Source of the DNA: a virus
Reading direction: 5' to 3' (one strand)
IMG/VR virus record: IMGVR_UViG_3300032242_001412
Location: 1 to 28,053 of that record
Length of the DNA stretch: 28,053 nt
A program made the translations under genes and the position numbers. Below, one piece after another: positions 2,730 through 26,400 of this stretch (its first letter is position 1; each line of letters starts with the position of its first letter). The notes under the pieces are model-generated. The model was given only the letters and a program-made list of their open reading frames with translations. It was not told the DNA's origin and searched no databases.

Positions 2730-3584
2730 ATGGCTGGTAATGCAAAAAATATTATTGTTGGTGCTGCACAGGTATTCATATCATATGGCGCTAATAACAA
2801 TCGTCCAGACGCAACTTCATCATCAGTTTTTCCATTTAGTATAAGTGGAAGCACAAATGGTGGTACAAATATTGCTGCTGTTTCAACCCCTAAGCATTTA
2901 TTAAGCACTGCTTCTTCATACTGGAGAGATTTAGGTTTTACATCAACTGGTGTTGACGTTTCATACGAACCCGGTTATTCAGATGTTGTGGTTGACCAAT
3001 TACTAGATGCTGCACGTTTATTCCAACAAAGTCTTAAGGTTATCATCAAGACAGAACTTGATGAAGGCTCATTTGAAAACATGAACTTTGTCTGGGGTCA
3101 ACAAGAAGTAATTCTTAATGCTGGTTCAGGGACGCAAACAGTTACTACACAATGGACAGCAAGTTCAAGTTCAGTTGCTGCTTCTGCTGCTGTGGCTGGT
3201 CTTAATATTGCTGCCGGTGCTTTGGGTATTACCCCTATGGAACGCTCCTTGGTGTTTGTTGGAAATGCTCCCGGTACTTTCGGTGGTACAACTTCTTACC
3301 CAGCAAGTGCAACAAGTGGTTCAACATCAGTCAGAACCATTGCAACACAAAGTGGTGCTTCAGTTGGTGCTTATACTGACGTATCAAGCATTAGAGGACG
3401 TGAACGTGTTTACTATGCTCGTAGAATTATTCAAGAGCAGACAACCGCACATGCCCTTAAGCGTGATGCTGCTACCGTGTTCCCTGTATCATTCCGTGCC
3501 CTTCCAGAAGCCGATCCTACAAGAGATTATACTTCAGGTTCAGAGTATGGTTTTATCATTGACCGCGTTTACAGCACTACCTGA
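2730..3584 (+). CDS. Major tail (tube) protein
   Basis: This 284-residue protein is the repeating subunit of the tail tube. The N-terminal half contains the pattern typical of actinophage-like tube proteins: LGFTSTGVDVSYEPGYSD followed by VVDQLLDAARLFQQSLKV. The C-terminal half has RERVYYARRII, then HALKRDAATVFPVSFRALP, and ends YGFIIDRVYSTT. Between them lies a Ser/Ala/Gly-rich stretch near residues 140-165. It has its own 68-base leader with a strong ribosome site (GAGAGG at 2715-2720) and is followed by a strong terminator, as expected for one of the most abundant virion proteins. Its codons include more C- and G-ending choices than its neighbours, fitting high expression. Confidence 0.85.
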   Translation: MAGNAKNIIVGAAQVFISYGANNNRPDATSSSVFPFSISGSTNGGTNIAAVSTPKHLLSTASSYWRDLGFTSTGVDVSYEPGYSDVVVDQLLDAARLFQQSLKVIIKTELDEGSFENMNFVWGQQEVILNAGSGTQTVTTQWTASSSSVAASAAVAGLNIAAGALGITPMERSLVFVGNAPGTFGGTTSYPASATSGSTSVRTIATQSGASVGAYTDVSSIRGRERVYYARRIIQEQTTAHALKRDAATVFPVSFRALPEADPTRDYTSGSEYGFIIDRVYSTT

Positions 3585-3601
3585 TAGTTCAATTTTGCTA
3601 T

Positions 3602-3646
3602 ACATAAATACCTCGTCTTTATGGCGGGGTATTTATGTTTTATAAT
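3602..3646 (+). terminator. Intrinsic terminator after the major tail gene
   Basis: ACATAAATACC at 3602-3612 pairs perfectly with GGTATTTATGT at 3628-3638. The stem extends inward to 3617/3623 with three further Watson-Crick pairs and two G-U pairs, leaving a 5-base loop (TTTAT) and a 16-pair hairpin. A short T run (3638-3641) and AT-rich sequence follow. It begins 17 bases after the tube protein stop and separates that gene from the chaperone and tape measure genes. Confidence 0.8.
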
Positions 3647-4016: not shown

Positions 4017-4321
4017 AAGATTTAGATCTAGTCGCTTTAGAAGGAGAAGTGTTTCTATTGGGTCGCTGGAAAAATTATGATGAACTAGAGGAGAGCCTCT
4101 GTTTTGAAGAATTATTAGCAACCATTAACGCTATACGCGAAAAAGAGGCGCGGGATAAAAAGTTCCTTGCCGCTCTTCAAGGTATTGATTTAGATGAAGA
4201 AAGTACTTCTTCATCTGGACAACAAGATTTGGGAGATATTAAAAATCTTCAAGGTTATTCTGCTGCTCAAGAAGGTTTTGGTATTGGAATGGGTCTTGGA
4301 TATAGCGAGTTGGTTGAGTAA
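3690..4321 (+). CDS. Tail assembly chaperone, frameshifted (gpGT-like) fusion
   Basis: A -1 slip on CCCAAAT (3986-3992) joins the first 101 codons of the short chaperone to a second frame that is open from 3986 to TAA 4319-4321, giving a 210-residue protein. The downstream part has the standard T-domain look: EGEVFLLGRWKNYDELEESL, then FEELLATINAIREKEARDKK, then an acidic tail and a Gly-rich end (GFGIGMGLGYSEL). This frame has no independent start of quality. The GTG at 4049 lies inside the LLGRW region and its upstream AAGGAGA is too close. The stop overlaps the tape measure ATG (TAATG), consistent with coupled translation. The T extension would recruit tail tube subunits to the chaperone-coated tape measure. 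Confidence 0.8.
3986..4036 (+). promoter_or_regulatory. Programmed -1 frameshift signal (slippery heptamer plus hairpin)
   Basis: In the zero frame the site reads C CCA AAT, so both tRNAs can re-pair on CCC AAA after slipping back one base. The -1 frame is blocked by TGA at 3983-3985 and opens exactly at the heptamer. Five bases downstream, AGCGAC (3998-4003) pairs with GTCGCT (4031-4036). A smaller inner stem, TCTAG (4007-4011) with TTAGA (4022-4026), gives a hairpin of suitable spacing to stimulate slippage. Confidence 0.8.
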
Positions 4322-7300
4322 TGGTTGATAATAGAATAACTTTTCAAGTTGATGGTACAGCCAATTTTCAATCTGTTTATAAAGAACTTGCTGCATTAAA
4401 ACAAGCCATTGCTGCTACTAATGCTGAAACTCAAAACTTGGGTAAAGCAAATGTTCGTTTTAGTCAAATTGAACAAGCAGAAAATACTTTTAGACAATTA
4501 GCATCATCTATTAGTGGTGTTAAAACAGAAATGGTTAATCTTTCTGCCGGGGCTGAACATTTAAGCCAAAGACTTTTAACTAATAAAAGATCTATGTCCG
4601 AAATGGTTTCTACTTGGCGGGCAGGGTCTAAAGCAATGGTTGGCGATATTCAAACTATCGCTGAACATCATGCCAAATTAAATCAATCATTAGTTATTCC
4701 AAGTTCAGTTCATAATGGTCAAGCAATGGTTCTTACAAATATGAAAGCCACTGCTGATCAAGTTTTAGTTGCTCAAAAAAGAATGCAGGCTTATAACACT
4801 GAAATGATGAACATGAGTAACCGAATGGTTAATTTCGGTAAAAATACTCAATGGTCCGGTCGTCAGTTAACCGTTGGCATCACAGTGCCCCTATTAGCCG
4901 CTACAGGCGCTCTAGGCGCTATGTATATGGATGTTGATAAAAACATGCGTAAACTTTTATCAGTGTATGGTGTGGGCGGTACAGCGCATGGAGCATTCTC
5001 CAACATGCTACCTTCACCACAGGAACTTGATAAGGTTAAGCAAGGCGTTGCTGATGTTTCTAGGCAAATGGCAGCAATGTATGGACAAACCGCAGCGCAG
5101 ACTACAGCGGTTGCCGCTGACCTTGCTGCTGCTGGTTATACACAACAACAACTACTTGATCTTACCAAAACTGTTTCTGATGCTATGGTTTTGGGAGAAA
5201 CTGATCAACAAACTGCCGTTAAGGCTACCATTGCAATTCAAAATACTTATAGATTAAGTACAAAACAAACTGCTGATTCATTAGCATTCTTTAGTGCTGC
5301 TCAGGCTGCTACTAGCACTACAATGAAAGATCTTATTGATGCTGTTCCTCGCGTTGGTCCTATTATGCAAAATCTTGGAGGAACTTATAAAGATACTGTT
5401 GCTTTACTTGTTGCTATGAAAGAAGGAGGAGTGGCGGCTGGTGAAGGTGCTAATGCTTTAAAGAATTCATTACAAAGAATTGTTGCTCCAACAAATACTG
5501 CTGTTAAACAATTAGCACAATTTGGTATTAATTTGAAAGAAATTGCTCATGCTGGTACTCCTATTCAAATGATTGAAAAACTACAGGCATCATTACAAAA
5601 ACTTGATCCTGTTGCTCGTCAGGTTGCTATTACTGATTTGTTTGGTAAATTTCAAGCAGCCCGTGTTACTGCTCTTTTAGATAACTTTAATAGAACTGGT
5701 ACGCAATCTGCAAAAGTTATGCAAATGATGGGTTTAAGTTCTCAACAATTGATGGACATTCAAAAACATCAACAAGAAACATTAATGCAATCTCCTTCTA
5801 TGAAATTTCAAGCAGCGATTGAATCATTAAAACAACAATTACTACCCATTGGTGAAAAACTTATTGAACTTGCTACTCCAGTGGTAAAAGCCATATCTTG
5901 GTTAGTTAATGCATTTCAAAATATGGGTCCATTGAAATATATTATTGCAGGATTTGCAGGATTATCTGCTATTGCTGGTCCAATTATTATGTTTGTTGGT
6001 TTGATATCTAACTTGGGTGGACAATTATTTAAAATTTCTCAACAAATGCGTATGTTTAGACAAGGTTTTGTAGATGGTGGTGGATTAAGTAAACCAATTA
6101 CTGGTTTTTGGAATGCTTTTAAAGAAGGTATTAAAGGTACTCAAAATTACTTGCAAGATTTTGATGCAGCAGAGTATGCTACTAAAAAAGCAACAGATTC
6201 ATTAACAGAATCTGCCGTAAGTCAGAAAGAATCTTGGGATAGATTAACAATAGCACTTGCTCAGTATAGACAAGAACTTGAAAGAATTAGAGCAATTTCT
6301 GGTTCTACCCCACTTGGTCCTGATACTGGTCCCGGCCCACTTGGCGGCGGTGGTGGTATATATCCAAGAGTTTCACCAGCAGGTCCAGTGTCTCCAGCAG
6401 GTATTGTTGGTGAAGCATCTCGTCCTGTTCATGTAGAAGCACTTAATGTAAATCTTGCTAATCAGAGAGGCAAACTTACTTTAGACGGCGGCGGAGAAGT
6501 TGAATTTTCTCATATGCGTCCAATGGAACAAACTAGACAGGGTTCGAATGTTCTTAATGAACCCGGCTATGATACTAGATTTAATGCTCAAGGTAATTTT
6601 GGAATTGTTCCCGGCTACTTAACTTCTGGTCTTGGTCAAACTATAAATAATCAATTAGGTAATCGTGGTCTTCCTGTTATTCCTACAAGTATGAATAGCG
6701 ATCAAGTTGCTCGTCACATACTTGAAGAATTAGGCATTCCAAATATTACAGATGCTATGGTTAAAAAAGCCATGCAAGAATTAAGTATTGAAAATATTGG
6801 TTCTTCTGAGGCTGGCAAAATTGCTCAAATGCAAGGTTTAGCAAGATTACAAAATAATCCTATTGCTATGAAACAATTTAAATCACTTGGTAGTAAAGAA
6901 GGTGCAACGGGTGCAGATGTAGAATCTTTCTTCGCCGCGCAACTTGGTCCAGAATGGGAAACTATTAAACAAAATGCTGCTAAACGAGTTTTAAATTTAT
7001 ATCAAAGGGCTGAACAACAAGTAGATCATGCAGTTAGATTTCAACAAGTTGCTCCATTTCAAAGTATTCAAGAACAACTTAGTTTAACTGGTGCAAGATT
7101 CTCAGAATTACTTTCTGAAGAATTTAATTATATTGTTCAAGGATATTCTCAAGCATTAAAAGATAGTTTAACTATTGCTTCTGATAATGTTGCTAATATT
7201 ACTGAACAAATGAAACGTAAAACAATGGTCAAACTTGTTAACGCTGGTGCTGCCTCTGAATCTATGATGAATCCTCTAATTTCCGCTATTGAAAGTCTTA

Positions 7301-10300
7301 TTCAACAAGTTCGTACAACAACAAATCAATTAACTGCTGAGGCTAAAACAGCAACTGCTCAAGTTGCTGCTATGGAATCTCGCGGTGCGGCACAAGGAGT
7401 TATTCGTACTCCTGAAATTGTTCCAATTCCTCCACGAGTTGCTACAGGAGGTAAAATTTCAGGACCGGGTGGACCTAAGGATGATAAAATTCCAGCCCTT
7501 TTATCTAATGGAGAATATGTTATACGGGCAGATGCTGTTGGACATTACGGTTCTGGTTTTATGGATGCCATTAATACTCGTAAACTTAAAGATGGAGGAA
7601 TAGCGCATTATTTATTAGGCAGTCCTGTTTTAAAAACATGGAATCCGCAAAGATTATGGGGGGCAACAGCAGGAGAAAATCTTTTAGTTAATGATATTTT
7701 TGGAAAATTTGGTAAATATACAGGATTTCGTGATCCAGTCATACAAGCAATTAGTAATTCTCTGGATCTTGAAAATCATGAAAAAGAATATTTAATAAGT
7801 CAATTAACTAACAACAGAAATCCATTAAATAAAGATAAACCGGGAATACAAGAAAAATATTCTTCTATATTAGAAAGAGAATTTGCTAACGGTACTTTTA
7901 GAACAATTCCCGGCACTGATATTCCAGTAAGTGAAGACTTTATTGGAAAATTAATGGCAACAATTCATGCTCCAAGATTTAGAACACAAGATTCAAAGTT
8001 TATTTCTGATATTGATCCAGAATTAAAAACATATGAGGGAAAAAGAAGTGCTAAGCAATCATTTAGGGATGCCTCCCTGCAAGGACATCTTGAATCTTTT
8101 GGATTATCGGGTAAAACTACTGAAGAACAAATAGCATGGTTTAAAGAAAATGTTATGCCAGATATTGAAAAAATGCTTCTTTTACAATATCAACCTGAAG
8201 AAATAGATTCAATTGTAAGAAAACTTTATGGTCAAACTTCTAACGGCGCAGCAAAAGGATATTTTCTTCAAAGAAATACAACACATTCTGCTAGAGGTGG
8301 AAATATTTCAGGGCCGGGTGGACCCAAAGACGATGTAATTCCTGCAATGCTTTCTAATGGCGAATATGTAGTTAATGCTGATGCTGTTAAACATTATGGT
8401 TCAAGTTTTATGGATGCAGTTAATGCTAAAAGACTTGCAATGGGTGGAGAAGTTGGACATTTTGCAGAAGGTGTTGATCTTTCTGGATTATCAGATGCTG
8501 AATTACAAAAAATGGCTAAATCTGGAAATCCTTCTAAACGTGGTCCTGCTGAAAAAGAATTAAATGCTAGATTGCAAGCAAGAAATAATATGCCAGTTGA
8601 AAATACTGTTCTTCAAGAAACTCCTGCTTATACCCGTCTTGGTGGGCAAAGTTTTAGAGGTCAATATGATGCTTCAATGCGTGCTAATGCTCAATTAGCA
8701 GAAAGCACAAATAAAGTTGCAGAAACATTAAACTCTGATGCAGCACAAATCATACAATATTCAGAAAGAATGCGTGCTGCTATTGATGATATGAAGATGC
8801 AATTTACTGATGCTAAAGAAAGTGTAAAATCTTGGGTTGTAGAAACTAGAGCAGGAATTGAAGATTCTTTAGCAAATCGTCGTGAAGCAAGAATGAATAG
8901 ATCTCGTTCCGCCGCTGATTTGGGACTTGTTGCAGGAACTCCGCAGGAAGGGGTAAGTCAACAAAAATGGCGACCCGCACCGGGTGGGTGGTTTGGAGAT
9001 TGGAGTTCTCCATATGCACCTACTCCAGAAGAACAAATGGCTGGACCGGGAATATTCTCAAGAATGAAAAATAATGCTGGTAAGGCAGGATCATGGCTTA
9101 AAAATTCTCAAGCGTTGAGAGGTCAGGGAGCAATGCTTGGCGGCATGATGGCTTCTATGGCAGGATCAATGGCAGCAGGTAATATGGAACAGAATGCTGG
9201 AGGTGCTACTGCTGGAAGTCAGGCTTTAAGTTATGGTAGTACAACCCTTGGTGCAACAGCAATGTTTGGTCCAGAAGTATTTATTCCAGCAACAATTGCT
9301 GCGGCAGGTTTTGGTGCGGCTATGGGTAATCGTGCTGAGCAAGATCGTCAACTAACTGATCAAATGAATAAATCTCATGATGCAGCAATGGGACTTGCTT
9401 CACAATTTAGTTCTACTGGTGAAGCAATGCAACAATTTGGTTTAAATATGCAAACAGTTTCTAGCATAAAATTTGGTTCTAGTACTCAAGAAACTGAAGC
9501 ATATGCTAAAGCAATTGATCAATTGACAACAGCAATGCATGATTCTCAGGATGTAACAACCCAACAACTTATAACTTATTTAAAAAATGCTACTCCTCAA
9601 GAACAAGCAGCGGCATTAAAAAATCAATATTTAGCAATTATTGGAAATAAAGGAACTACCGAAATGGCAGCGGTTAATGTTGCTGCCTTAGCAAATAATG
9701 CTGGTATATCTGCAAATGTTGCTAAAACAGTTGTAAATGAAATGCAGGCTAAAGAATCTAAAATTAAAGTTTCCAGTCAACAATCCACCGCCTTAGCAGA
9801 TTTAATTCCTAGTGCTAAAGCCGCTTCAAAAATTTATACTCCAAGTTCAGCATCTTATAATTTTGATTTGGCAAATTCGATGGCGGCTGGAACAAATACT
9901 TGGTATGGCGCTATCGCCTCTAAAGTATTTGGAAATTATAATGATTCTTTTAATAAAACACAATTTAATATTCCTGATGTATTGAAAGCATATAATTATA
10001 ATGGTTCTACGGGTATGCCAAAAGGCTTCCGTATAGGCGATATGATCCAATTTGCATCAGGTAAGTCAGTATCAGATATTTATCAAAATCAAAGTGCAAA
10101 AGAAATGCTTAATAATCAAGATACTAATATTGCTGGTATTTCAAAATTATCGGGCGTTAAAGAAGGAATGTCTGCTGAAGAAATAACAACAAAAATTAGT
10201 GCATATCTTCAATCTATTGAAGGTTTAGGAACTACTCTAAGAGGTGTTGCTCAAGACGCTCAAGATGCTTCTGATAAATTTGATAATCAATTTATTAATC

Positions 10301-13300
10301 CTATAAATTCTGCTATTCAAAATTTAAGTCCAAGTGATTTTAAAAAGTTTAGTGATGAGTTTAATAAAAATAATTCTATGATGGGTCAAAGTTTAGATGG
10401 ATTAGCACCTAAATATATGGGAATTCTTAATACACTTGCAACTAATGTTGATCCATCATTGGATGGATTTATTGAAAAACTTTCAAAGACCGGCGGCGCT
10501 GTCAATATGACCGCTGGAACTATAACAACAGCATTAAATGCTATATCTAATTTATCTAGAACTGGTTTCACATTTGCTCCCGGCTCAATTCAATCAACTC
10601 TGGCTGGTGCAGCAGCCAATCCTGAAATTGCTGCTGGATTAAATGCACAAGCAAGTTTTCTACAAGCGGGTCAAACAGCAGAATCCGGTTTTGTATCTGA
10701 TGCTCAATCAAAAGTCGCACAAGATCAACAAAAGAAAGCAGATCCATATAAACAACAATTATCTGATAATGCTGCTGCTCAAAAACAACTTTCTAAGCAA
10801 TATAAGTTAGATCAACGTGCGGCCAATGATGCTTTTAAAGCACAGCAAAAAGATGAAAATGCTAAAATTAAAAGTATTCAAAAAGAAATTGATACTCGTC
10901 AAAAACTTTGGGATGAAAAACAAAAAGGCATTGAACAAGATAAAACATTAAGAAATTTACAAAATGATATTTATAAGGCTCGCGCTACGGGTTCTTTGCT
11001 TGATATTGCTTCTGCTCAGGCTAATTATAATACTGAATTGCAAAAACAACAAGAGATTAATGCTAAAGATAAAGCAGATGCAAAAGATAAAAATAAAATT
11101 CAATCAATGCAAGATGAAATGCAAAGGCAACAAGAAGCATTTGATAATAAAATGCAAACCATGCAAGATGCTTATGATGCTGCTCAAACTAAATTGCAAG
11201 ATCAAAATGATGCTATTCAAAAAGCACAAGAAACTGCTACAAGTGTAGTTAATCAAAGTTCTACACAAATTGATGATAGTTCTACAAAAATTTCTGCGGC
11301 AATGAAAACTATTGATGATACTTTTACTGCTCATGCTAAAGATAAAGGCTGGGTTCCGTGGCAAGATGCTTCTGTCAAAGAAGCAATGGGTACTATTTCA
11401 ACTTATACGGGTAAATCTGTTCCTCAAGTTCAAGCATCACTTACAGGAGTTTATAATTCGTTATTAGAATGGCAAAAGCACCCGTTTGAACTTGATGGTC
11501 AAGGAAAACTTACAGATATTTTGCATCCTGATGTACAAATTACAATTGATCCAGCCAATGGAGCATTAAAATTTATTGGAAATGCAACTTCTTTTAAAAG
11601 TTTAGCCGATGATCTTGGAATAAAAATAACTAGCACTACTCCCGGTGCTGGACCATCAATTGCTACAACTACTGTAACTAAAGCAGATGGTGGTCATATT
11701 CGTGGACCGGGAACTGAAACTTCTGATTCTATTCCTGCCATGCTTTCAGATGGAGAATATGTCATTAAGGCTTCTTCCGTAAAGAAATATGGAACAGGAT
11801 TTATGAATGCTGTCAATACAGGTAGGTTAGATGGCGGAGGTTTTGCTCATGGTGGTCCAATTAGAGGTTATGCTACTGGTGGGCATGTAACTAAAAACAA
11901 AAAAACTAAACCTACTGACGGAGAAGATTTTGGTACTGGTAAACCAATGTCTGATAATGAAAAAGAAAAACTTAAAAATAAAAAACCAAGAAATGAAGCA
12001 GCAGTAGGTTCTGGTGGAAGCGGTGGAGGTTCTGGTGCCGTTGCTGGCCCAACTGGAAATCCCGGCGCTATGACAACTGGCGACGCTATTGCAGCGTATG
12101 CTAAAAAATTTGTTGGTGTTCCATATGTAGACTCTGCCACTATTAATGGTGAAGCAACTCCATCAACTGGCTGGGACTGTTCCACTTTTGTTAAATATGT
12201 TTACAAACAATTTGGTATGTCAGATGTAGTTGGTTATACTTACTCGCAACTTGATGATCCTAAATTTAAATTTGTTAATCATGGTAATGAAATGCCCGGT
12301 GACACTCTTTATTATATGAGAAATGGTATGCATCACGTTAGAATTTATACTGGTAATGGTCAAGCAATGGGTGCTGAAAACCCAAGTGTAGGAACAATTT
12401 CTACTACCGCTTTTGGTGATGGTTGGTCAAGTACTAATTATGGTGTTAATAATAATAATGATGGTTCTCGCCGCCGATGGGATGGTACTTTTACTGGTGA
12501 TTTACCTTCAGCAAATTATTCTGGTACATCAGGTGGTACTGCAATTGGACCAACTTATGCGACACCAACGTGGAATGATTTAACCACTGTTGGTAAAAAA
12601 GCAATTTTAGCATCCTTAGGTTTTTGGGGAGGAAGAGGAACATCAATTCCAAGCGACTTAGTTGTTGGTCAGGCTAAACAAATTTCTGGTGGCACAACAG
12701 GTTCAACTAGTACTGGTGGTCCTGCTGGAAGTGGTGGAACTCCAACTGGTAATCGTGCTATTGGTCAGCAGATGGCAGCCAAATACGGTTGGGGTTCAGG
12801 GGCACAATGGAACGCTCTTGATTTTATTTGGCAACATGAATCTGGTTGGTCAACCTCTGCTTGGGATTCTGCTCAAGGAAGTGCTATGGACCCACAAGAT
12901 CCAACTGGCACTGCTCATCTTACATGGGGAATTCCTCAAGCAAATCCCGGTCATAAAATGGCAAAATTTGGTAATGATTGGGTTACAAATCCTGCTACTC
13001 AAATTGCTTGGGGTCTAGATTATATTAAAAAAGGTGGTAACACTGGAAATATTGGTCCAACTCCTTTAGATGAATATAATTTTGGAATGTCAAAAGGCCG
13101 TCCCGGCGTAAATGATGGTTGGGGTTGGTATGCTAATGGTGGTCATGTGAGAGGACCGGGCGGTCCCAAAGAAGATCGTATTCCTGCTATGTTGTCTAAT
13201 GGTGAATATGTTATTCAAGCAGATTCTGTAAAACATTATGGTACTGGATTTATGGATTCTATTAATAAAGGACATTATGCAAAAGGTGGACTTATTAAGG

Positions 13301-15504
13301 GATATGCAACTGGTGGTAGTGTTTCTGGTAATAATTCTGGTAGTGGTGAATCATGGCTTAAACAATTTATTAATTCTCATAATGTTTCTGATGCTGTTGC
13401 CCATATACTTTGGGCAATTGGTATGCGTGAATCTGGCGGTGATCCGAAAAACATAAGTGGTCAAGATTATGGTGTTTGGCAGATTAATGATTCTCATTTG
13501 AGTGATATAAGAAAGATGTTTGGCTCTAGTGCTACAATGCGAGATATGCTAGACCCTGAAAATAATTTTAAATATATGCAACATATTAGTAAAAATTTCA
13601 CAGACTGGACTCCTTGGGGGTTGGCGGCTGATGGTAAAAGTTTTGATTGGAGTCAATATCCTCAAAGTTGGATAAATAAATATGCGGCTAATTCAGAAAA
13701 AGAATATTTGTCTTGGTACAATAAATATTCTTCATCTTCTTCATCTACTTCTGCAAAAACAAAAACAAAATCAGAGCCACCACCTCCCACTGAAACTGAT
13801 GTTGAATATTGGCAACATCCAAGGCCAATGACTAAGGCTCAAATTGCTGCTGCTAATCGTGCTGCAAGAGATGCAAGAAGAAAAGCAGCAAAACAAAAGG
13901 CACATCTTGCTCATCTAGCCCATTTAAAGCATATGAAAAATAAAAAGGGTAAAGGAAAATATTTAGATGGCGGTTTAGTTGAAGATGTTAATCTTACAAA
14001 AGAAGTATTTCATGATCCCTCACATCATTATTATCCAAAACCAAATTATAAAAAGAATAGAATTGCTGGTTATGACCTTATTAAGTTAATATGGGATTCT
14101 GGTTTTAGGGGTAAAGATATTGAAACTGCTTATGGAGTTGCTTTAGCAGAATCTGATGGTGAAAGAAAAGCAACTCATCCAAATGCTGATGGAAGTACAG
14201 ATTATGGATTGTTCCAACTTAATAATCCTTCCAATAAGACAGTTGGTCCAGATGGCACAGGGCAGAAAATTAGTTATGGTTCTAGAATATTTGATGCTGT
14301 TTATAATGCTAGAATGGCTAATGCAATTTTAAATAATCCCGGTTGGAAAAAATTATATAAAGATTCAAGGGGTAAGCATAAAGGTCCAAGACCTAATGAT
14401 ACTTCTGTTTGGATGGATTGGAATACTTATCAATTTAATGATTATTTGAAGAGGTTGAAAGATACTCCTATTGATCCTATGTGGCTTGTTTCTGCTATGT
14501 TTGAACCAAAATCATTTAAAGATGGCGGTAAGGTTTCTGATCCTTCTATTAGTAAGGGAACTATTCATAGAGATTACAAAATACCACTTCCTCAAAAAAA
14601 GACTCAACCAAAACCTTCTACAACTAAACCTAAAGCATTAGATATAAGACAACAAATAGCAAATTATGCAGCAGCGTTTGCTGGAAAAGTTGATTATTCT
14701 GGTCCTGCCGGATATGGCGCTCAGCATAGTAGAGCAGGTGGAGATGAAAATAGTGCTGCTATGCCAACTAAATCAAATACTTGGAAATTTAAAGGTGACC
14801 ATTTTGATCATATTGATGGCTCTGGAGATAAAATTTATACTGGTGGAATGGGCGGCTGGGGATGTTCAGAATTTACATGGAGAATTCTTCAACATTTCCG
14901 TAAACAAAAAGGGTATCATAATTCCGCAGAACTTTTAGATATAGGAAAACCAATATCAATTAAAGATATTTTGCCAAGTGATCTTGTAATTTATAGACAG
15001 GGTGATAAAGGTCACGTTCAAATGTATATTGGAAATGGAAGAACTGTTGGTGCCAATGGCTCTAATAATGGAACAACAATTATGAAAAATAAAACTAGCA
15101 AAGGGTTTAATTATTCGGAACCTTTTGTTGGAATTAGAAGAATGTTTGCTGATGGTGGACATATTTCTGGCCCCGGTGGTCCTATGGATGATAAAATTCC
15201 TGCTATGCTTTCCAATGGTGAATTTGTTGTTCGTGCCGCTTCAGTAAGTAAATATGGTTCTCAAATGCTTGATGCTATTAATAATGGTAAATTTGATTAT
15301 AGAGTATCTAAACCTATGGCTCGCGGCGGAATGGTTGGACCAAAAGATAATAATTCTAGTTCTTTAAGTAATACCAATATAGAGTATAATATTAATGTAA
15401 ATGTTGAGGGTTCTAACGCTACCCCCGAACAAATTGCTAATGTTGTTATTAAAACTATTAAACAAAAAGAGCGTGCGAACAATACTCATAGGAATATAGG
15501 ATAA
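4321..15504 (+). CDS. Giant tape measure protein with five predicted cell-wall hydrolase domains
   Basis: This 3727-residue protein sets tail length and is expected to be ejected ahead of the DNA. Residues 1-180 are helical. Near 180-202 and 541-568 are hydrophobic, Gly/Ala-rich segments. About 225-475 matches the phage tail tape measure (PhageMin/TP901 type) core, with KGVADVS-like helices and GGVAAGEGANALKNSLQRI. About 1600-1667 is another Gly/Ala/Met hydrophobic stretch, and 2135-2325 is a charged coiled coil. Five GPGGPxDD/IPAxLSNGEYV linkers lie at about 1043, 1326, 2457, 2940 and 3612. From 2583 on come NlpC/P60 (C2620, H2672), three lysozyme-like domains (E2840, E3037, E3277) and a second NlpC/P60 (C3515, H3565). 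The C-terminus (YNINVNVEGSNATPEQIANV) is typical of tape measures. The ATG overlaps the chaperone stop. The enzyme calls rest on visible motifs only. Confidence 0.92.
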   Translation: MVDNRITFQVDGTANFQSVYKELAALKQAIAATNAETQNLGKANVRFSQIEQAENTFRQLASSISGVKTEMVNLSAGAEHLSQRLLTNKRSMSEMVSTWRAGSKAMVGDIQTIAEHHAKLNQSLVIPSSVHNGQAMVLTNMKATADQVLVAQKRMQAYNTEMMNMSNRMVNFGKNTQWSGRQLTVGITVPLLAATGALGAMYMDVDKNMRKLLSVYGVGGTAHGAFSNMLPSPQELDKVKQGVADVSRQMAAMYGQTAAQTTAVAADLAAAGYTQQQLLDLTKTVSDAMVLGETDQQTAVKATIAIQNTYRLSTKQTADSLAFFSAAQAATSTTMKDLIDAVPRVGPIMQNLGGTYKDTVALLVAMKEGGVAAGEGANALKNSLQRIVAPTNTAVKQLAQFGINLKEIAHAGTPIQMIEKLQASLQKLDPVARQVAITDLFGKFQAARVTALLDNFNRTGTQSAKVMQMMGLSSQQLMDIQKHQQETLMQSPSMKFQAAIESLKQQLLPIGEKLIELATPVVKAISWLVNAFQNMGPLKYIIAGFAGLSAIAGPIIMFVGLISNLGGQLFKISQQMRMFRQGFVDGGGLSKPITGFWNAFKEGIKGTQNYLQDFDAAEYATKKATDSLTESAVSQKESWDRLTIALAQYRQELERIRAISGSTPLGPDTGPGPLGGGGGIYPRVSPAGPVSPAGIVGEASRPVHVEALNVNLANQRGKLTLDGGGEVEFSHMRPMEQTRQGSNVLNEPGYDTRFNAQGNFGIVPGYLTSGLGQTINNQLGNRGLPVIPTSMNSDQVARHILEELGIPNITDAMVKKAMQELSIENIGSSEAGKIAQMQGLARLQNNPIAMKQFKSLGSKEGATGADVESFFAAQLGPEWETIKQNAAKRVLNLYQRAEQQVDHAVRFQQVAPFQSIQEQLSLTGARFSELLSEEFNYIVQGYSQALKDSLTIASDNVANITEQMKRKTMVKLVNAGAASESMMNPLISAIESLIQQVRTTTNQLTAEAKTATAQVAAMESRGAAQGVIRTPEIVPIPPRVATGGKISGPGGPKDDKIPALLSNGEYVIRADAVGHYGSGFMDAINTRKLKDGGIAHYLLGSPVLKTWNPQRLWGATAGENLLVNDIFGKFGKYTGFRDPVIQAISNSLDLENHEKEYLISQLTNNRNPLNKDKPGIQEKYSSILEREFANGTFRTIPGTDIPVSEDFIGKLMATIHAPRFRTQDSKFISDIDPELKTYEGKRSAKQSFRDASLQGHLESFGLSGKTTEEQIAWFKENVMPDIEKMLLLQYQPEEIDSIVRKLYGQTSNGAAKGYFLQRNTTHSARGGNISGPGGPKDDVIPAMLSNGEYVVNADAVKHYGSSFMDAVNAKRLAMGGEVGHFAEGVDLSGLSDAELQKMAKSGNPSKRGPAEKELNARLQARNNMPVENTVLQETPAYTRLGGQSFRGQYDASMRANAQLAESTNKVAETLNSDAAQIIQYSERMRAAIDDMKMQFTDAKESVKSWVVETRAGIEDSLANRREARMNRSRSAADLGLVAGTPQEGVSQQKWRPAPGGWFGDWSSPYAPTPEEQMAGPGIFSRMKNNAGKAGSWLKNSQALRGQGAMLGGMMASMAGSMAAGNMEQNAGGATAGSQALSYGSTTLGATAMFGPEVFIPATIAAAGFGAAMGNRAEQDRQLTDQMNKSHDAAMGLASQFSSTGEAMQQFGLNMQTVSSIKFGSSTQETEAYAKAIDQLTTAMHDSQDVTTQQLITYLKNATPQEQAAALKNQYLAIIGNKGTTEMAAVNVAALANNAGISANVAKTVVNEMQAKESKIKVSSQQSTALADLIPSAKAASKIYTPSSASYNFDLANSMAAGTNTWYGAIASKVFGNYNDSFNKTQFNIPDVLKAYNYNGSTGMPKGFRIGDMIQFASGKSVSDIYQNQSAKEMLNNQDTNIAGISKLSGVKEGMSAEEITTKISAYLQSIEGLGTTLRGVAQDAQDASDKFDNQFINPINSAIQNLSPSDFKKFSDEFNKNNSMMGQSLDGLAPKYMGILNTLATNVDPSLDGFIEKLSKTGGAVNMTAGTITTALNAISNLSRTGFTFAPGSIQSTLAGAAANPEIAAGLNAQASFLQAGQTAESGFVSDAQSKVAQDQQKKADPYKQQLSDNAAAQKQLSKQYKLDQRAANDAFKAQQKDENAKIKSIQKEIDTRQKLWDEKQKGIEQDKTLRNLQNDIYKARATGSLLDIASAQANYNTELQKQQEINAKDKADAKDKNKIQSMQDEMQRQQEAFDNKMQTMQDAYDAAQTKLQDQNDAIQKAQETATSVVNQSSTQIDDSSTKISAAMKTIDDTFTAHAKDKGWVPWQDASVKEAMGTISTYTGKSVPQVQASLTGVYNSLLEWQKHPFELDGQGKLTDILHPDVQITIDPANGALKFIGNATSFKSLADDLGIKITSTTPGAGPSIATTTVTKADGGHIRGPGTETSDSIPAMLSDGEYVIKASSVKKYGTGFMNAVNTGRLDGGGFAHGGPIRGYATGGHVTKNKKTKPTDGEDFGTGKPMSDNEKEKLKNKKPRNEAAVGSGGSGGGSGAVAGPTGNPGAMTTGDAIAAYAKKFVGVPYVDSATINGEATPSTGWDCSTFVKYVYKQFGMSDVVGYTYSQLDDPKFKFVNHGNEMPGDTLYYMRNGMHHVRIYTGNGQAMGAENPSVGTISTTAFGDGWSSTNYGVNNNNDGSRRRWDGTFTGDLPSANYSGTSGGTAIGPTYATPTWNDLTTVGKKAILASLGFWGGRGTSIPSDLVVGQAKQISGGTTGSTSTGGPAGSGGTPTGNRAIGQQMAAKYGWGSGAQWNALDFIWQHESGWSTSAWDSAQGSAMDPQDPTGTAHLTWGIPQANPGHKMAKFGNDWVTNPATQIAWGLDYIKKGGNTGNIGPTPLDEYNFGMSKGRPGVNDGWGWYANGGHVRGPGGPKEDRIPAMLSNGEYVIQADSVKHYGTGFMDSINKGHYAKGGLIKGYATGGSVSGNNSGSGESWLKQFINSHNVSDAVAHILWAIGMRESGGDPKNISGQDYGVWQINDSHLSDIRKMFGSSATMRDMLDPENNFKYMQHISKNFTDWTPWGLAADGKSFDWSQYPQSWINKYAANSEKEYLSWYNKYSSSSSSTSAKTKTKSEPPPPTETDVEYWQHPRPMTKAQIAAANRAARDARRKAAKQKAHLAHLAHLKHMKNKKGKGKYLDGGLVEDVNLTKEVFHDPSHHYYPKPNYKKNRIAGYDLIKLIWDSGFRGKDIETAYGVALAESDGERKATHPNADGSTDYGLFQLNNPSNKTVGPDGTGQKISYGSRIFDAVYNARMANAILNNPGWKKLYKDSRGKHKGPRPNDTSVWMDWNTYQFNDYLKRLKDTPIDPMWLVSAMFEPKSFKDGGKVSDPSISKGTIHRDYKIPLPQKKTQPKPSTTKPKALDIRQQIANYAAAFAGKVDYSGPAGYGAQHSRAGGDENSAAMPTKSNTWKFKGDHFDHIDGSGDKIYTGGMGGWGCSEFTWRILQHFRKQKGYHNSAELLDIGKPISIKDILPSDLVIYRQGDKGHVQMYIGNGRTVGANGSNNGTTIMKNKTSKGFNYSEPFVGIRRMFADGGHISGPGGPMDDKIPAMLSNGEFVVRAASVSKYGSQMLDAINNGKFDYRVSKPMARGGMVGPKDNNSSSLSNTNIEYNINVNVEGSNATPEQIANVVIKTIKQKERANNTHRNIG
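7447..7599 (+). repeat. Tape measure linker repeat 1
   Basis: Residues 1043-1093 of the tape measure: GGKISGPGGPKDDKIPALLS, then NGEYVIRADAVGHYG, then GFMDAIN and a closing DGG. This is the first of five copies in the protein. It precedes an unrecognised 232-residue segment. Confidence 0.85.
8296..8448 (+). repeat. Tape measure linker repeat 2
   Basis: Residues 1326-1376: GGNISGPGGPKDDVIPAMLS, then NGEYVVNADAVKHYG, then SFMDAVN and a closing GG. It is the copy closest to repeat 1 and begins the long helical part of the tape measure. Confidence 0.85.
11689..11841 (+). repeat. Tape measure linker repeat 3 (divergent)
   Basis: Residues 2457-2507: GGHIRGPGTETSDSIPAMLS, then DGEYVIKASSVKKYG, then GFMNAVN and GGG. 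The GGPKDD core is replaced by GTETSD. A Gly-rich GYATGG segment follows, leading into the first NlpC/P60 domain. Confidence 0.8.
12067..12495 (+). other. NlpC/P60-like peptidase domain 1 of the tape measure
   Basis: Residues about 2583-2725. The helix AIAAYAKKFVGVPY leads to the nucleophile motif WDCSTFVKYVY (C2620). A GDTLYY strand and HHVRIYTGNG (likely catalytic H2672) follow. This is the standard Cys-His order of NlpC/P60 endopeptidases, which cut peptide stems of peptidoglycan. Confidence 0.75.
12754..13095 (+). other. Lysozyme/transglycosylase-like domain 1 of the tape measure
   Basis: Residues about 2812-2925. WNALDFIWQHESGW places the likely catalytic glutamate at E2840. TWGIPQANPGHKM and NPATQIAWGLDYI follow in the order seen in the soluble lytic transglycosylase-like domains common in actinobacterial and actinophage proteins. 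Confidence 0.7.
13138..13290 (+). repeat. Tape measure linker repeat 4
   Basis: Residues 2940-2990: GGHVRGPGGPKEDRIPAMLS, then NGEYVIQADSVKHYG, then GFMDSIN and KGG. It separates lysozyme-like domains 1 and 2 and is followed by GYATGG, as after repeat 3. Confidence 0.85.
13354..13728 (+). other. Lysozyme/transglycosylase-like domain 2 of the tape measure
   Basis: Residues about 3012-3136. ILWAIGMRESGGDPKN gives the likely glutamate E3037, and DYGVWQIND is the partner motif. The sequence is clearly different from domains 1 and 3, so this is not a recent tandem copy. Confidence 0.6.
14062..14460 (+). other. Lysozyme/transglycosylase-like domain 3 of the tape measure
   Basis: Residues about 3248-3380. 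ETAYGVALAESDGERKAT carries the likely glutamate E3277, and DGSTDYGLFQLN is the typical following motif. FDAVYNARMANAIL forms the next helix. It is the best match of the three to the SLT-like fold. Confidence 0.7.
14641..15147 (+). other. NlpC/P60-like peptidase domain 2 of the tape measure
   Basis: Residues about 3441-3609. GGWGCSEFTWRILQHF carries the nucleophile C3515, and GHVQMYIGNGRTVG carries H3565. A roughly 45-residue insertion rich in Gly, Asp and His lies between the first helix and the Cys motif, absent from domain 1. Confidence 0.7.
15154..15330 (+). repeat. Tape measure linker repeat 5
   Basis: Residues 3612-3670: GGHISGPGGPMDDKIPAMLS, then NGEFVVRAASVSKYG, then MLDAIN and a later RGG. 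It is the last copy and joins the second NlpC/P60 domain to the C-terminal 50 residues of the tape measure. Confidence 0.85.
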
Positions 15505-22087: not shown

Positions 22088-23463
22088 TGATAAAAGGATT
22101 CTATAGAGTAACATCAAATGGTGAGTTTGTTGCCGAATATGAAAATATGATTACTTCTAATGGGTTGCAAGCCATTAATGAATTTTTATGTGGAATGATA
22201 CCGGATTGGGCGGGATCTATAGCAATTGGAAGTTTAAATTCTAATCCAACAACTTCTAGTACACAATTTTTAGATTATGAATATTTAAGATATCCAACAA
22301 CATTAAAAGGATACGTTAGTTCATCGGCAATAAATAAAATTTCTTTAAAAACATCTCTTGACCCATCATTAACATTTCAAGCATATGAACTTGGAATTTT
22401 TCCAAATAGGGTTACAAGCAGTCGCATAGATCATGCTGAAATTTCTAATTTTTCTGGAATATCAAACGGTAGTAGTACTTGGTCGGTAGGTATTAATACA
22501 GATAATTTAATATTAAATCCCAGTTTTGAAACTGGTACTACTGCTAGTTGGACGTTTAATGGTGGATTAAATGTTTCAATAGTAACTTCATCAGCATATT
22601 CTGGAACATATGCTATGCAATTGCAAAAAAATAGTAATGTTTCCTCATTTGTTCAAAATATATATTGGGCACAACCTGCATTATTTAATTTAATTGGTGG
22701 AGTTTCTTATACTTTCAGTTTCTATGCAAAACGTGTTAGCGGAACAAATCCTATGCCCATAGATTTTTCATTGTTTAGTTTAGGTGCTGGAGGTGGATAT
22801 GTTGCAAATGGAGCAAATCTTACTAATGATTGGCAAAAAATTTCTATAACTCTTCCCGGCACATCAGTAGTCACTGGAACTGGAGTTGCTTATATTAATA
22901 TGAGTGGAGCGGTTCTTGGAGATACAGTATTAATTGATTCAGTAATGTTACAAGGACCATCTAGTCCAGCAATAACTGCTTCAGGAGCAAGATCTGATTC
23001 ATTAACAGTACAATTACCTGCTGGACAAACTGTTACCTCACCAATTTCTATGGGAACAGGGGCATATAATTTAAATGATAGAATAGATATTCTATATTAC
23101 ACTGCATTACCAATAACTTCAGTTTCAACTTTAACTGTTAATCTTATTGATGATTCTGCTAGTGCAAATAAATGGACGGCAGTAGCAAATATTGCTCCTA
23201 CCGCTAGTGGAATATATACTACTAGTCGTTTATTTTTTACTTCTGCTCCACCAGATGCATTTACAAATAATTTATCATCTTGTCAAGTAAAATTTGAAGG
23301 TAGTGGAACTATTTTGCTGGATCATATGAAAATGTCTACTGGCGAAACAAAAAATATAGATTCAATATTAACTAGTAGAATATATTCATCAAACTCATCT
23401 CCATTAATTACAAAAGCATATGGTCAACCAATGGAAATTGAATATTATATTCAGGTGACATGA
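22087..23463 (+). CDS. Receptor-binding-type minor tail protein with carbohydrate-binding-like domains
   Basis: This 458-residue protein is likely part of the tail tip that binds the cell surface. Residues 1-135 carry the attachment-type opening common in phage tail fibres: YENMITSNGLQAINEFL, then SIAIGSLNSNPTT and LRYPTTLKGYV. Residues 140-287 resemble a carbohydrate-binding beta-sandwich (NLILNPSFETGTTASWTF, SAYSGTYAMQLQ, NDWQKISITLPG, DTVLIDSVMLQG). Residues 297-440 look like a second, diverged sandwich that ends with ILLDHMKMSTGE. The ribosome site AGGTGA (22073-22078) lies inside the last codons of the preceding gene, and ATG overlaps its stop. The sugar-binding role is inferred from fold pattern, with no ligand evidence. 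Confidence 0.6.
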   Translation: MIKGFYRVTSNGEFVAEYENMITSNGLQAINEFLCGMIPDWAGSIAIGSLNSNPTTSSTQFLDYEYLRYPTTLKGYVSSSAINKISLKTSLDPSLTFQAYELGIFPNRVTSSRIDHAEISNFSGISNGSSTWSVGINTDNLILNPSFETGTTASWTFNGGLNVSIVTSSAYSGTYAMQLQKNSNVSSFVQNIYWAQPALFNLIGGVSYTFSFYAKRVSGTNPMPIDFSLFSLGAGGGYVANGANLTNDWQKISITLPGTSVVTGTGVAYINMSGAVLGDTVLIDSVMLQGPSSPAITASGARSDSLTVQLPAGQTVTSPISMGTGAYNLNDRIDILYYTALPITSVSTLTVNLIDDSASANKWTAVANIAPTASGIYTTSRLFFTSAPPDAFTNNLSSCQVKFEGSGTILLDHMKMSTGETKNIDSILTSRIYSSNSSPLITKAYGQPMEIEYYIQVT

Positions 23464-26400
23464 TGGCTGATAATAAAGATTTAGATAAATTAATACCGGG
23501 TGCTAAATACAATGTCAAAATTGTTCCAAAAAATCTTTCAGATGTTGATGCACATGAAGTTTCATCTTTTAATTATCAATTTGTAGTTCCCAATGATTGG
23601 CCGGTAGGATCAGGATCTCCAATTCCAAGTAACCAAACTGGAAAAAATACTTACACTGGTCCCGGCGGTACATATTCATCTAGCAATATGTTTATAAATA
23701 AAGATGGAATATTTGCTTATAAATCAGGTTCTGCAATATTAGATGTAAATCGAACTGTATGGATAGATGCCAATACTGGTAATGCATATTTTAGTGGATC
23801 AATTGTTGCTACTTCTGGTTCAATTGGTGGATTCACTATTGTTTCAGATAATTTATATGGATATATTAATGGAAAATATTCTGGTATCAGACCATCTTCT
23901 TTTCCATTTTATTCTGGAGCAAATAACACATTTGGCGACGGTGCAAAATTTAGTGTAGATACTTACGGTAATTTATATGCTCAGTCTGCATCATTTGCTG
24001 GAACTCTTACTGCACCAACAATTATTACTGGTTCTATTACGGCTAATGCTGCATCTTTTGGTTTTTCTAGCAATAGTCAACTTGTTGGTGGTGCCATATA
24101 TGTTCCTAATACAAGTAGTCCAAAATTTACTGTTGATTCTGCTGGTAATTTAGTTGCTCAGTCTGCTTCTATAACTGGACAAATAGTTGCACAATCAGGA
24201 ACTATCGGTGGATATACAATTCGTGCCACAGATTTATATGGAGGTACGGGTACAAGTTTTGTAGGTTTATCTGCATCAGGGACTTATTCAATTTTTTCTG
24301 GAGCAACTAATTCTACAGGATCAGGAGCAAAATTTAGTGTAACTCCTGCGGGAGATTTATATGCTCAATCTGCCTCTATTATTGGAGGAATAACAGCAAA
24401 TTCTGGATATATTGGAGGAACCGGCGGTTGGAAAATATCAACTGGTTATATAACATCAGGTGCCGGATCAGGATCAATTACGCTAGATGGTGCTAATAAT
24501 AAAATATATATAGGTTCAGGATCATACAACAATCCTAATACTTCATTCTATGTAGATGGTGCGGGACAATTTAGTTTAGGAAACAAACTAACCTTTGATA
24601 CTTCTGGAAATCTTTCAATTTCAGGATCAATAACTGCTAGTTCAGGAACAATAGCAGGATGGTCAGTATCTGGTCAAGAAATATCTAAAAATTCAACTAA
24701 TGGAACTCATATAGCATTAAACTCTGGTCCAATAAATCCTAAAATATATATTGGGCAAGGTAATCATGCATCTCAAGATACTGGATTTTATGTAGATTCA
24801 ACTGGAAGATTTTCATTAAGCAATCAATTATATTTTATTCCTGATAATGGTACTGCTCAAAGTTCTAGTACTGTTGCATCAACAAATATAAATTCATATC
24901 AAATTACTACAACAATAGATAATAGTTCAGGTTCAGTTCTTTATAAAGGAATATTGGCAATGGGGACGGATCTTGATGTTGATACTTATGCAGCAAGTGT
25001 TACTAATACAAATCCGGCCATTGTTGTTTTAAATAAATATCCTTTAAATACTAACGTTTCATCTTCTATTACTTTTAAAGCAGATAATTTTTCACAATTA
25101 ACAGTTACTGGAAAAATTAAAGGTGCAGTAGAATCTGTAACACCAATTCAATCTCCAAAATTATTTTCAACTATAACTAGTGCATCTGTTGGAGCCGATG
25201 GATCAGTAGTTATATTTAATACAACTGGTCATTCTTTTATATCTGGTGAACATTTAATTTTACAAGGATTATCAGCATCTGGTAATCTTTCTAATTTAAA
25301 TTATTCTGCTTCTTCTGGAAATAGTTATTCTATTATTTCAGCATCAAACAGTTCTAGTTTTTCAATTTCAATTCCCACATCTGCTAGTTTAATTGCTGGT
25401 AATTATACTCCCATATCTGGTTCTGTAAGTATTCAAGAATTAACAATGGGTCTACATCCATCTGAAGGATATGTTGGTACACCACCAACTTATGTTGACC
25501 GCGAATCTTGGTATCATGATGCCGGAATTGGTGTAAGACTTGATAAATATAATTGGTGGTTTACTAATAATCAATTCCGCGTCGGTACAGATGAAACTTC
25601 ATTCAAATGGGATGGGTCAAAATTTAAAGTTAAGGGCGGCGGTTTATACACTCTTGAAATGAGTGTTGGATCATCAGATACTAATAATTATTTTGCTATT
25701 TATAATTCTAATATTACAACATTAGGCTATGGAGATACTTATAGTGATACTTATTATGATAAAACTAATTTACCATTCTTTAATAATATAGACACACCAT
25801 TCTATGTAGATGCTACTGGAAAATTTAGTTTAGGTAATCAATTAACATGGAATCCTTCTACTTCTACATTAGCAGTTAAAGGAACAATTAATGGTCAATT
25901 TGTAGGTTTTGGTGGTCCAAATAGTGGTTCTACTAATGTTGCTTTAGGTGGAGATAGTCCATTATTTAATAATAATGGTGGTATATATAATATTGCAATT
26001 GGATCATCTGCTTTATATTCTAATATTCGTGGTATGCATAATATTGCACTTGGATATCAATCATTATTTTCAAATACCAATAATAATGGTGAATATAATA
26101 CAGCAATAGGCTATCAATCATTATTTAATAACACTAATGGTCAATATAATACAGCAATAGGATTTTGGTCATTATTGAATAATATTTCTGGCACATATAA
26201 TGTTGCCCTAGGTGCTCAAACATTACAATATAATACTACTGGTAATGCCAATGTTGCTATTGGAGAACAATCATTATTTAATAACACTACTGGGTATGGC
26301 AATATTGGTTTAGGGGTAGGAACTTTACGAGATAGTGCTTCGGGAGATTCTAGTATTGCTATAGGAAATAATGCAATAGGTAAAAATCTTATTTCTCGGT

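Follow-up and report, generated by a model that had tools for sequence, protein, structure and literature searches.

The C-terminal third of the tape measure protein (TMP) encoded by the viral record IMGVR_UViG_3300032242_001412 is an enlarged lysin block, in which we predict, in this order, an NlpC/P60 domain, an AggPromo transglycosylase-like domain, an SLT domain, a c-type-lysozyme-like domain and a second NlpC/P60 domain (hereafter D1 to D5). Five lytic domains in one polypeptide are exceptional within everything that was sampled. The best explanation, which we regard as likely, is that the TMP carries a lytic block made of two domain pairs (D1-D2 and D4-D5) plus D3, which would digest the cell wall locally, where the tail tip meets it, as the DNA enters. 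From the evidence laid out below, we infer the location at the tip, the enzyme activity, the use during entry and the acquisition as pairs. The window, that is to say the whole stretch of DNA that was analysed, is a linear fragment of the viral record, 28,053 bases long, with a GC content of 0.338.

Five predicted lytic domains in one tape measure protein

The TMP gene (4321..15504, plus strand, as are all features of the gene described below) is a single uninterrupted frame encoding 3727 amino acids that matches TIGR01760, PF10145 and the PHROG tape measure families. Its N-terminus scores 96.6 bits against TIGR01760 (cut-off 28.8), which places the protein among the TP901-type TMPs, and 98.3 bits against PF10145; the assignment is also indicated by the position of the gene, a long ORF lying 5' of minor tail genes. 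The conserved N-terminal region (residues 1-660; 4321..6300) has about 31% identity to Stanwilliamsviridae TMPs, the best resemblance being to Streptomyces phage TMPs (~31% across 570 residues), and it matched no bacterial or archaeal genome of GTDB. In IMG/VR, searches with the single N-terminal or C-terminal sequence of the TMP returned no relatives; relatives were retrieved from this database with an N-terminal alignment rather than with a single sequence, and for the C-terminus it yielded no close relative.

The genes around the TMP encode a head-tail adaptor, connector-type proteins, a tail protein with an Ig domain and two small proteins, then the TMP itself, followed by large minor tail proteins and a tail spike with an S74 chaperone. 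The same tail gene order is found in Stanwilliamsviridae, in which these genes are annotated as head-to-tail adaptor, stopper, major tail protein, tail assembly chaperones and TMP. The source of the TMP is an uncultured, probably long-tailed phage with a Stanwilliamsviridae-like tail gene layout. The tail-spike-like protein (23460-27866 in the window) has 1468 residues with the S74 chaperone domain at its C-terminus, and in its gene a 51-base unit occurs in two tandem copies (26084-26182).

To assign the lytic domains, D1 to D5 were excised and scanned individually against curated Pfam and NCBIfam cut-offs. Each segment passes a curated family cut-off, far beyond chance, in agreement with the original prediction of five domains of two chemistries in one TMP: D1, D3, D4 and D5 pass in Pfam, and D2 in NCBIfam. 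D1 (residues 2583-2710; 12067..12450, residue 2583 starting at base 12067) scores 37.8 bits against NLPC_P60 (PF00877; cut-off 23). D2 (residues ~2812-2930; 12754..13110) scores 61.1 bits against AggPromo_Cterm (NF052397; cut-off 40) and falls under the Pfam SLT cut-off (15.2 vs 21.3 bits), whereas its homologues in loci L114 and L104 pass that cut-off, scoring 34 bits across the same domain. D3 (residues ~3018-3125; 13372..13695) scores 37.0 bits against SLT (PF01464; cut-off 21.3), as expected of an SLT/GH23-like domain. D4 (residues ~3250-3360; 14068..14400) scores 49.3 bits against SLT_3 (PF18896; cut-off 27) and stays below the cut-off of the c-type lysozyme family PF00062 (19.2 vs 27 bits), to which it is similar but does not belong. 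Finally, D5 (residues ~3470-3612; 14728..15156, residue 3609 ending at base 15147) scores 26.9 bits against NLPC_P60 (PF00877; cut-off 23) and has a phmmer match to MepS/Spr at 8e-6.

Single-sequence HMMs of D1 to D5 gave almost nothing in relatives, and Pfam and multi-sequence HMMs were used instead. An NlpC profile built from homologues matches solved NlpC/P60 structures at 1e-30, the profile of the D4 group matches solved c-type lysozymes at ~1e-13, and a two-sequence profile of D3 matches c-type lysozymes and EtgA; for D2, sequence profiles gave no convincing solved relative. Two AlphaFold models were examined, each covering two domains (D1-D2 and D4-D5), with a mean pLDDT of ~52 in both. 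The D1 model superposes on the solved NlpC/P60 structure 7cfl with a Z of 17.2 and an rmsd of 2.1 over 117 residues, consistent with a papain-like fold, and the D4 model on hen lysozyme with a Z of 11.1 and an rmsd of 2.7 over 112 residues, its catalytic half being modelled at a pLDDT of 80-91. The folds anticipated by the original prediction were thus recovered for D1 (NlpC/P60) and D4 (lysozyme), whereas the D2 and D5 parts were modelled with low confidence: for the D1-D2 model, structure matches are listed only for the D1 part, and the D5 part of the other model (m4f8fe7c69442) gave short Foldseek matches to MepS (E ~0.006). Fold comparison on these models strongly backs the identity predicted for D1 and moderately that predicted for D4; the putative identities of D2, D3 and D5 rest on profiles.

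Active-site residues and proposed action at the tail tip

Seven residues had been named beforehand as catalytic, and all of them are found at the predicted numbers: C2620 and H2672 in D1, E2840 in D2, E3037 in D3, E3277 in D4, and C3515 and H3565 in D5. D2, D3 and D4 each retain the catalytic Glu together with a downstream GxxQ hairpin. In D2, E2840 is accompanied by a GxPQ motif, with WGIPQ conserved among homologues; in D3, E3037 lies in an ES motif that is followed by GVWQ, with Asp-3049 as a further candidate residue. In D4, Asp-3294 is located 17 residues past E3277 within DGSTDYGLFQLN (DGSTDYG motif), a spacing that matches that of E35 and D52 in hen lysozyme. Given this arrangement of Glu and Asp, a hydrolytic lysozyme mechanism is likely for D4. 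Judging from these residues, D2 to D4 are likely active.

The situation differs for the NlpC/P60 domains, in which the Cys and His are intact in both cases but the third catalytic position, 12 residues past the His (H+12), is occupied by a Gly (Gly2684 in D1 and Gly3577 in D5), so that neither has the full triad. The earlier claim that the key residues are visible is therefore right for the Cys/His pairs and the Glu residues and does not extend to the third NlpC residue. Furthermore, the residue preceding the catalytic Cys is an Asp in D1 and a Gly (Gly3514) in D5. In RipA, the third triad residue is Glu444, and every residue of the triad is essential, a change to Ala abolishing activity; Asp382 of the same enzyme, located before the Cys, contacts gamma-D-Glu (PMC6628586). 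The activity of D1 and D5 is uncertain because of the Gly at the third triad position, and D5 also lacks the Asp that would contact the substrate. From these residues we consider that activity of D1 is plausible and that of D5 doubtful. The proposal that all five domains cut is accordingly weakened.

These substitutions give some weight to another reading, in which D1 and D5 are catalytically dead and bind the peptide stems, holding the tail tip in place while the three glycosidases cut. The model for such a role would be RipD, a non-catalytic NlpC/P60 protein that binds peptidoglycan and that appears among the structural matches of the D1-D2 model. The Gly found at H+12 in both domains and, in D5, the Gly that replaces the Asp preceding the Cys point in the same direction, as does the fact that the commonest H+12 residue in the counted homologues is a His (22 of 48). 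However, this position varies among phage NlpC homologues (H, E, A, N, Q, G, S or D), the Cys and His are kept in both domains, D1 retains the Asp before the Cys and, going by the title of a paper cited in PMC12067865, SagA needs only the catalytic dyad. On balance, we hold it rather unlikely that D1 and D5 serve for binding only.

In the preferred explanation, a lytic block acting at the tail tip, the position of the block follows by analogy with TP901-1, in which the last 60 TMP residues are essential and binding of these residues to the tail-tip initiator has been proposed (PMC5099701). The TMP studied here ends with a C-terminal tail, NIEYNINVxVEGSNA...THRNIG (residues 3660-3727; 15298..15501), which it has in common with the TMP of locus L012 and which, by the same analogy, is a probable anchor to the tail-tip initiator. 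This tail would be located at the tail tip, and the lytic block would sit directly above it. On adsorption, the TMP would leave the tube tip first, and the lytic block would reach the wall ahead of the DNA. There, the glycosidases D2 to D4 would cut the MurNAc-GlcNAc bonds and the NlpC/P60 domains D1 and D5 the peptide stems, the combined cuts opening a local hole for the tube and the DNA.

Rarity of the five-domain block and its possible origin

The comparison set comprised 354 loci retrieved by similarity to the TMP N-terminus or to the individual domains. In this non-random sample, in which lytic domains were counted from similarity searches and near-duplicates were included, 349 ORFs have lytic domains: 303 have one, 45 have two, and only the TMP studied here has five. 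Pfam adds a VanY domain at L186, which brings the number of lytic domains to three there; this 1069-residue phage protein (L186:336-3542), with VanY, NlpC/P60 and SLT_3 domains, is the next most loaded lysin seen. The 2490-base contig L103 contains three AggPromo-type domains (234-584, 1217-1567 and 1811-2161), each in a separate ORF, which are possibly tandem lysin genes.

Among 48 TMPs related through the N-terminus (24 + 24, a few of them incomplete), a Pfam lytic family was detected in 3, with one domain each, located C-terminally as in the TMP studied here: NLPC_P60 in 1 and M23 in 2 (L082 and L086, to which the M23 domains were assigned by profiles built for this analysis). No Pfam SLT was detected in any of these 48 TMPs. 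In the isolated-phage set, two members match SLT, one of which is Gordonia phage PokyPuppy, and each of the five Streptomyces phage TMPs sampled has a lysozyme-like domain and an M23 domain. The claim that the number of domains is unusual is borne out by these figures, the isolated-phage relatives having two. It is also in line with a 2017 review according to which most virion lysins have a single lytic domain and only five were counted with two (PMC5380687); in the open papers of the literature, no TMP with three or more lytic domains is reported, which is weak evidence of absence.

Several tail proteins offer partial parallels. CwlP (YomI) of the Bacillus prophage SP-beta, for which lysozyme and endopeptidase activities are listed (PMC5380687), is likewise a very large and probably tail-located lysin, but it has two domains and its endopeptidase is of another type. 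A precedent for the use during entry is the TMP of mycobacteriophage TM4, which also has a hydrolase motif inside it (motif 3); this motif is dispensable but helps the phage to inject its DNA into cells in stationary phase (PMC1796659). The TM4 protein differs from the present TMP in that its motif is single and of another kind. A transglycosylase is combined with an NlpC/P60 domain in the diffocin hub (PMC10996793).

The lytic domains are associated in a regular way: of the 45 ORFs with two of them, 44 combine a peptidase with a glycosidase. The order NlpC, AggPromo and GEmI-type motif, which is that of D1, D2 and the motif that follows them, recurs at L126, L114, L104, L111, L132 and others, in phage proteins that differ from the TMP by their size (~1000-1180 amino acids) and by having two lytic domains, and that may or may not be tape measures. 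Similarly, the order SLT then NlpC/P60, which is that of D4-D5, recurs at L188, at L182, in gp119 of Rhodococcus phage E3 (L091/L183) and in more proteins; gp119 has two domains and, unlike the present protein, is annotated as a baseplate protein and not as a tape measure. Alignments of the pairs were built from rows that naturally have two domains, and the mixed multi-domain alignments A10 and A11, which contained misplaced fragments, were discarded.

As D1-D2 and D4-D5 recur as two-domain units elsewhere, whole pairs may have moved, and a block composed of two common pairs, to which a further lysozyme (D3) is added, fits better than five separate acquisitions. The original prediction had reasoned that the three lysozyme-like domains are too different to be recent duplicates and that this suggests separate acquisition. 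Its first part agrees with our comparisons, in which D3 and D4 show a distant likeness only (z 3.8) and D2 resembles neither (z below 1); the second is not borne out as worded, given the recurrence of the pairs in other phages. An origin in which five single domains were each acquired independently does draw on the strong differences between the three lysozyme-like domains and on the NlpC tree, in which D1 and D5, clearly homologous with 27/91 identical residues, form long unresolved branches that join each other, apart from the NlpC domains of known pairs. Yet both pairs exist ready-made in other phage proteins, with their domains in the same order, two-domain ORFs nearly always combine a peptidase with a glycosidase, and the TMP of L012 has a lone NlpC at the position of D5; five independent acquisitions consequently appear improbable to us. 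The GC3 of D1 to D5 (0.170) is close to the values elsewhere in the gene (0.147-0.183), and the acquisition is therefore not recent, or the sequence has ameliorated.

The GEYVI motif and the closest relatives

A segment of ~55 residues, GGxxxGPGGPxDDxIPAMLSNGEYVIxAxSVxxYGxGFMDAIN, occurs in five copies in the TMP. Copy 1 (GPGGPxDDxIPAxLSxGEYVI; residues 1036-1089; 7426..7587) and copy 2 (residues 1317-1373; 8269..8439) are found upstream of the lytic block, which copy 3 opens before D1 (residues 2447-2504; 11659..11832) and copy 5 closes after D5 (residues 3606-3659; 15136..15297), copy 4 being located between D2 and D3 (residues 2937-2987; 13129..13281). The motif has no match in Pfam. With the profile built here, it was detected in 52 of the 55 full-length TMPs of the group, in one to five copies each. 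The ~227 residues between copies 1 and 2 (residues 1090-1316; 7588-8268 in the window) have no Pfam match and could be another inserted domain.

The closest complete relative is the TMP of L012 (IMGVR_UViG_3300032242_002098), whose N-terminal 650 residues are ~43% identical to those of the TMP studied here. Besides the C-terminal tail, it shares with it an NlpC/P60 domain placed between two motif copies, and it differs in its length (2915 amino acids) and in having one lytic domain only. The Stanwilliamsviridae TMPs (MeganTheeKilla, BillNye, StarPlatinum, Coruscant and Patelgo) have a homologous N-terminus and a similar gene order, and their lytic domains are also C-terminal, with motif-like segments before and after both of them in the TMPs of the Streptomyces phages. 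In contrast to the present TMP, they have ~2100 amino acids and only two lytic domains, lysozyme-like and M23, without NlpC/P60. Other domains were observed in this group of TMPs. According to Pfam, three of the IMG/VR relatives have an OmpA domain of the peptidoglycan-binding type, which in L054 (incomplete) is located downstream of a motif copy; its assignment to L059 and L072 follows from the count of three and from their close similarity to L054. The TMP of one member of the L019-L089 set (alignment A3) matches HAD-type phosphatases (HAD_PNKP at 8e-13, and Acid_phosphat_B), an odd cargo.

That the repeated motif led to the fusion of two tape measure genes during assembly is very unlikely. 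The five motif copies in the gene and the metagenomic, fragmentary nature of the record speak for such a chimera, but exact matches between copies extend to 15 bases at most, too short to mislead an assembler, the frame is clean over 3727 codons with a similar GC3 throughout, and the single TMP N-terminus and single C-terminal tail both match the same relative, L012.

The placement of the motif in these sequences suggests that it marks a slot for exchangeable domains. A bolder proposal combines this slot with activity of all five domains: the motif would frame a modular cargo slot near the tail tip, in which catalytic or envelope-binding domains (NlpC, M23, lysozyme types and OmpA) are swapped in beside or between motif copies. 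In the TMP studied here, two neighbouring slots would be filled, and the resulting five-enzyme device for opening the wall would be present in several copies per virion. We put forward this joint proposal tentatively and would not expect it to hold in full.

The lytic block of this TMP amounts to a well-known wall-piercing device in enlarged form, and it extends the number of known tail-borne wall-cutting enzymes per polypeptide from one or two to five. The residues named above make the contribution of each domain directly testable. Furthermore, the analysis brings out a testable regularity, namely that lytic units combining a peptidase and a glycosidase are found next to, or between, copies of a very common and uncharacterised TMP motif. 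Should this motif indeed mark a slot in which domains are exchanged, it would help to account for the way in which phages replace the enzymes that they use to enter the wall.
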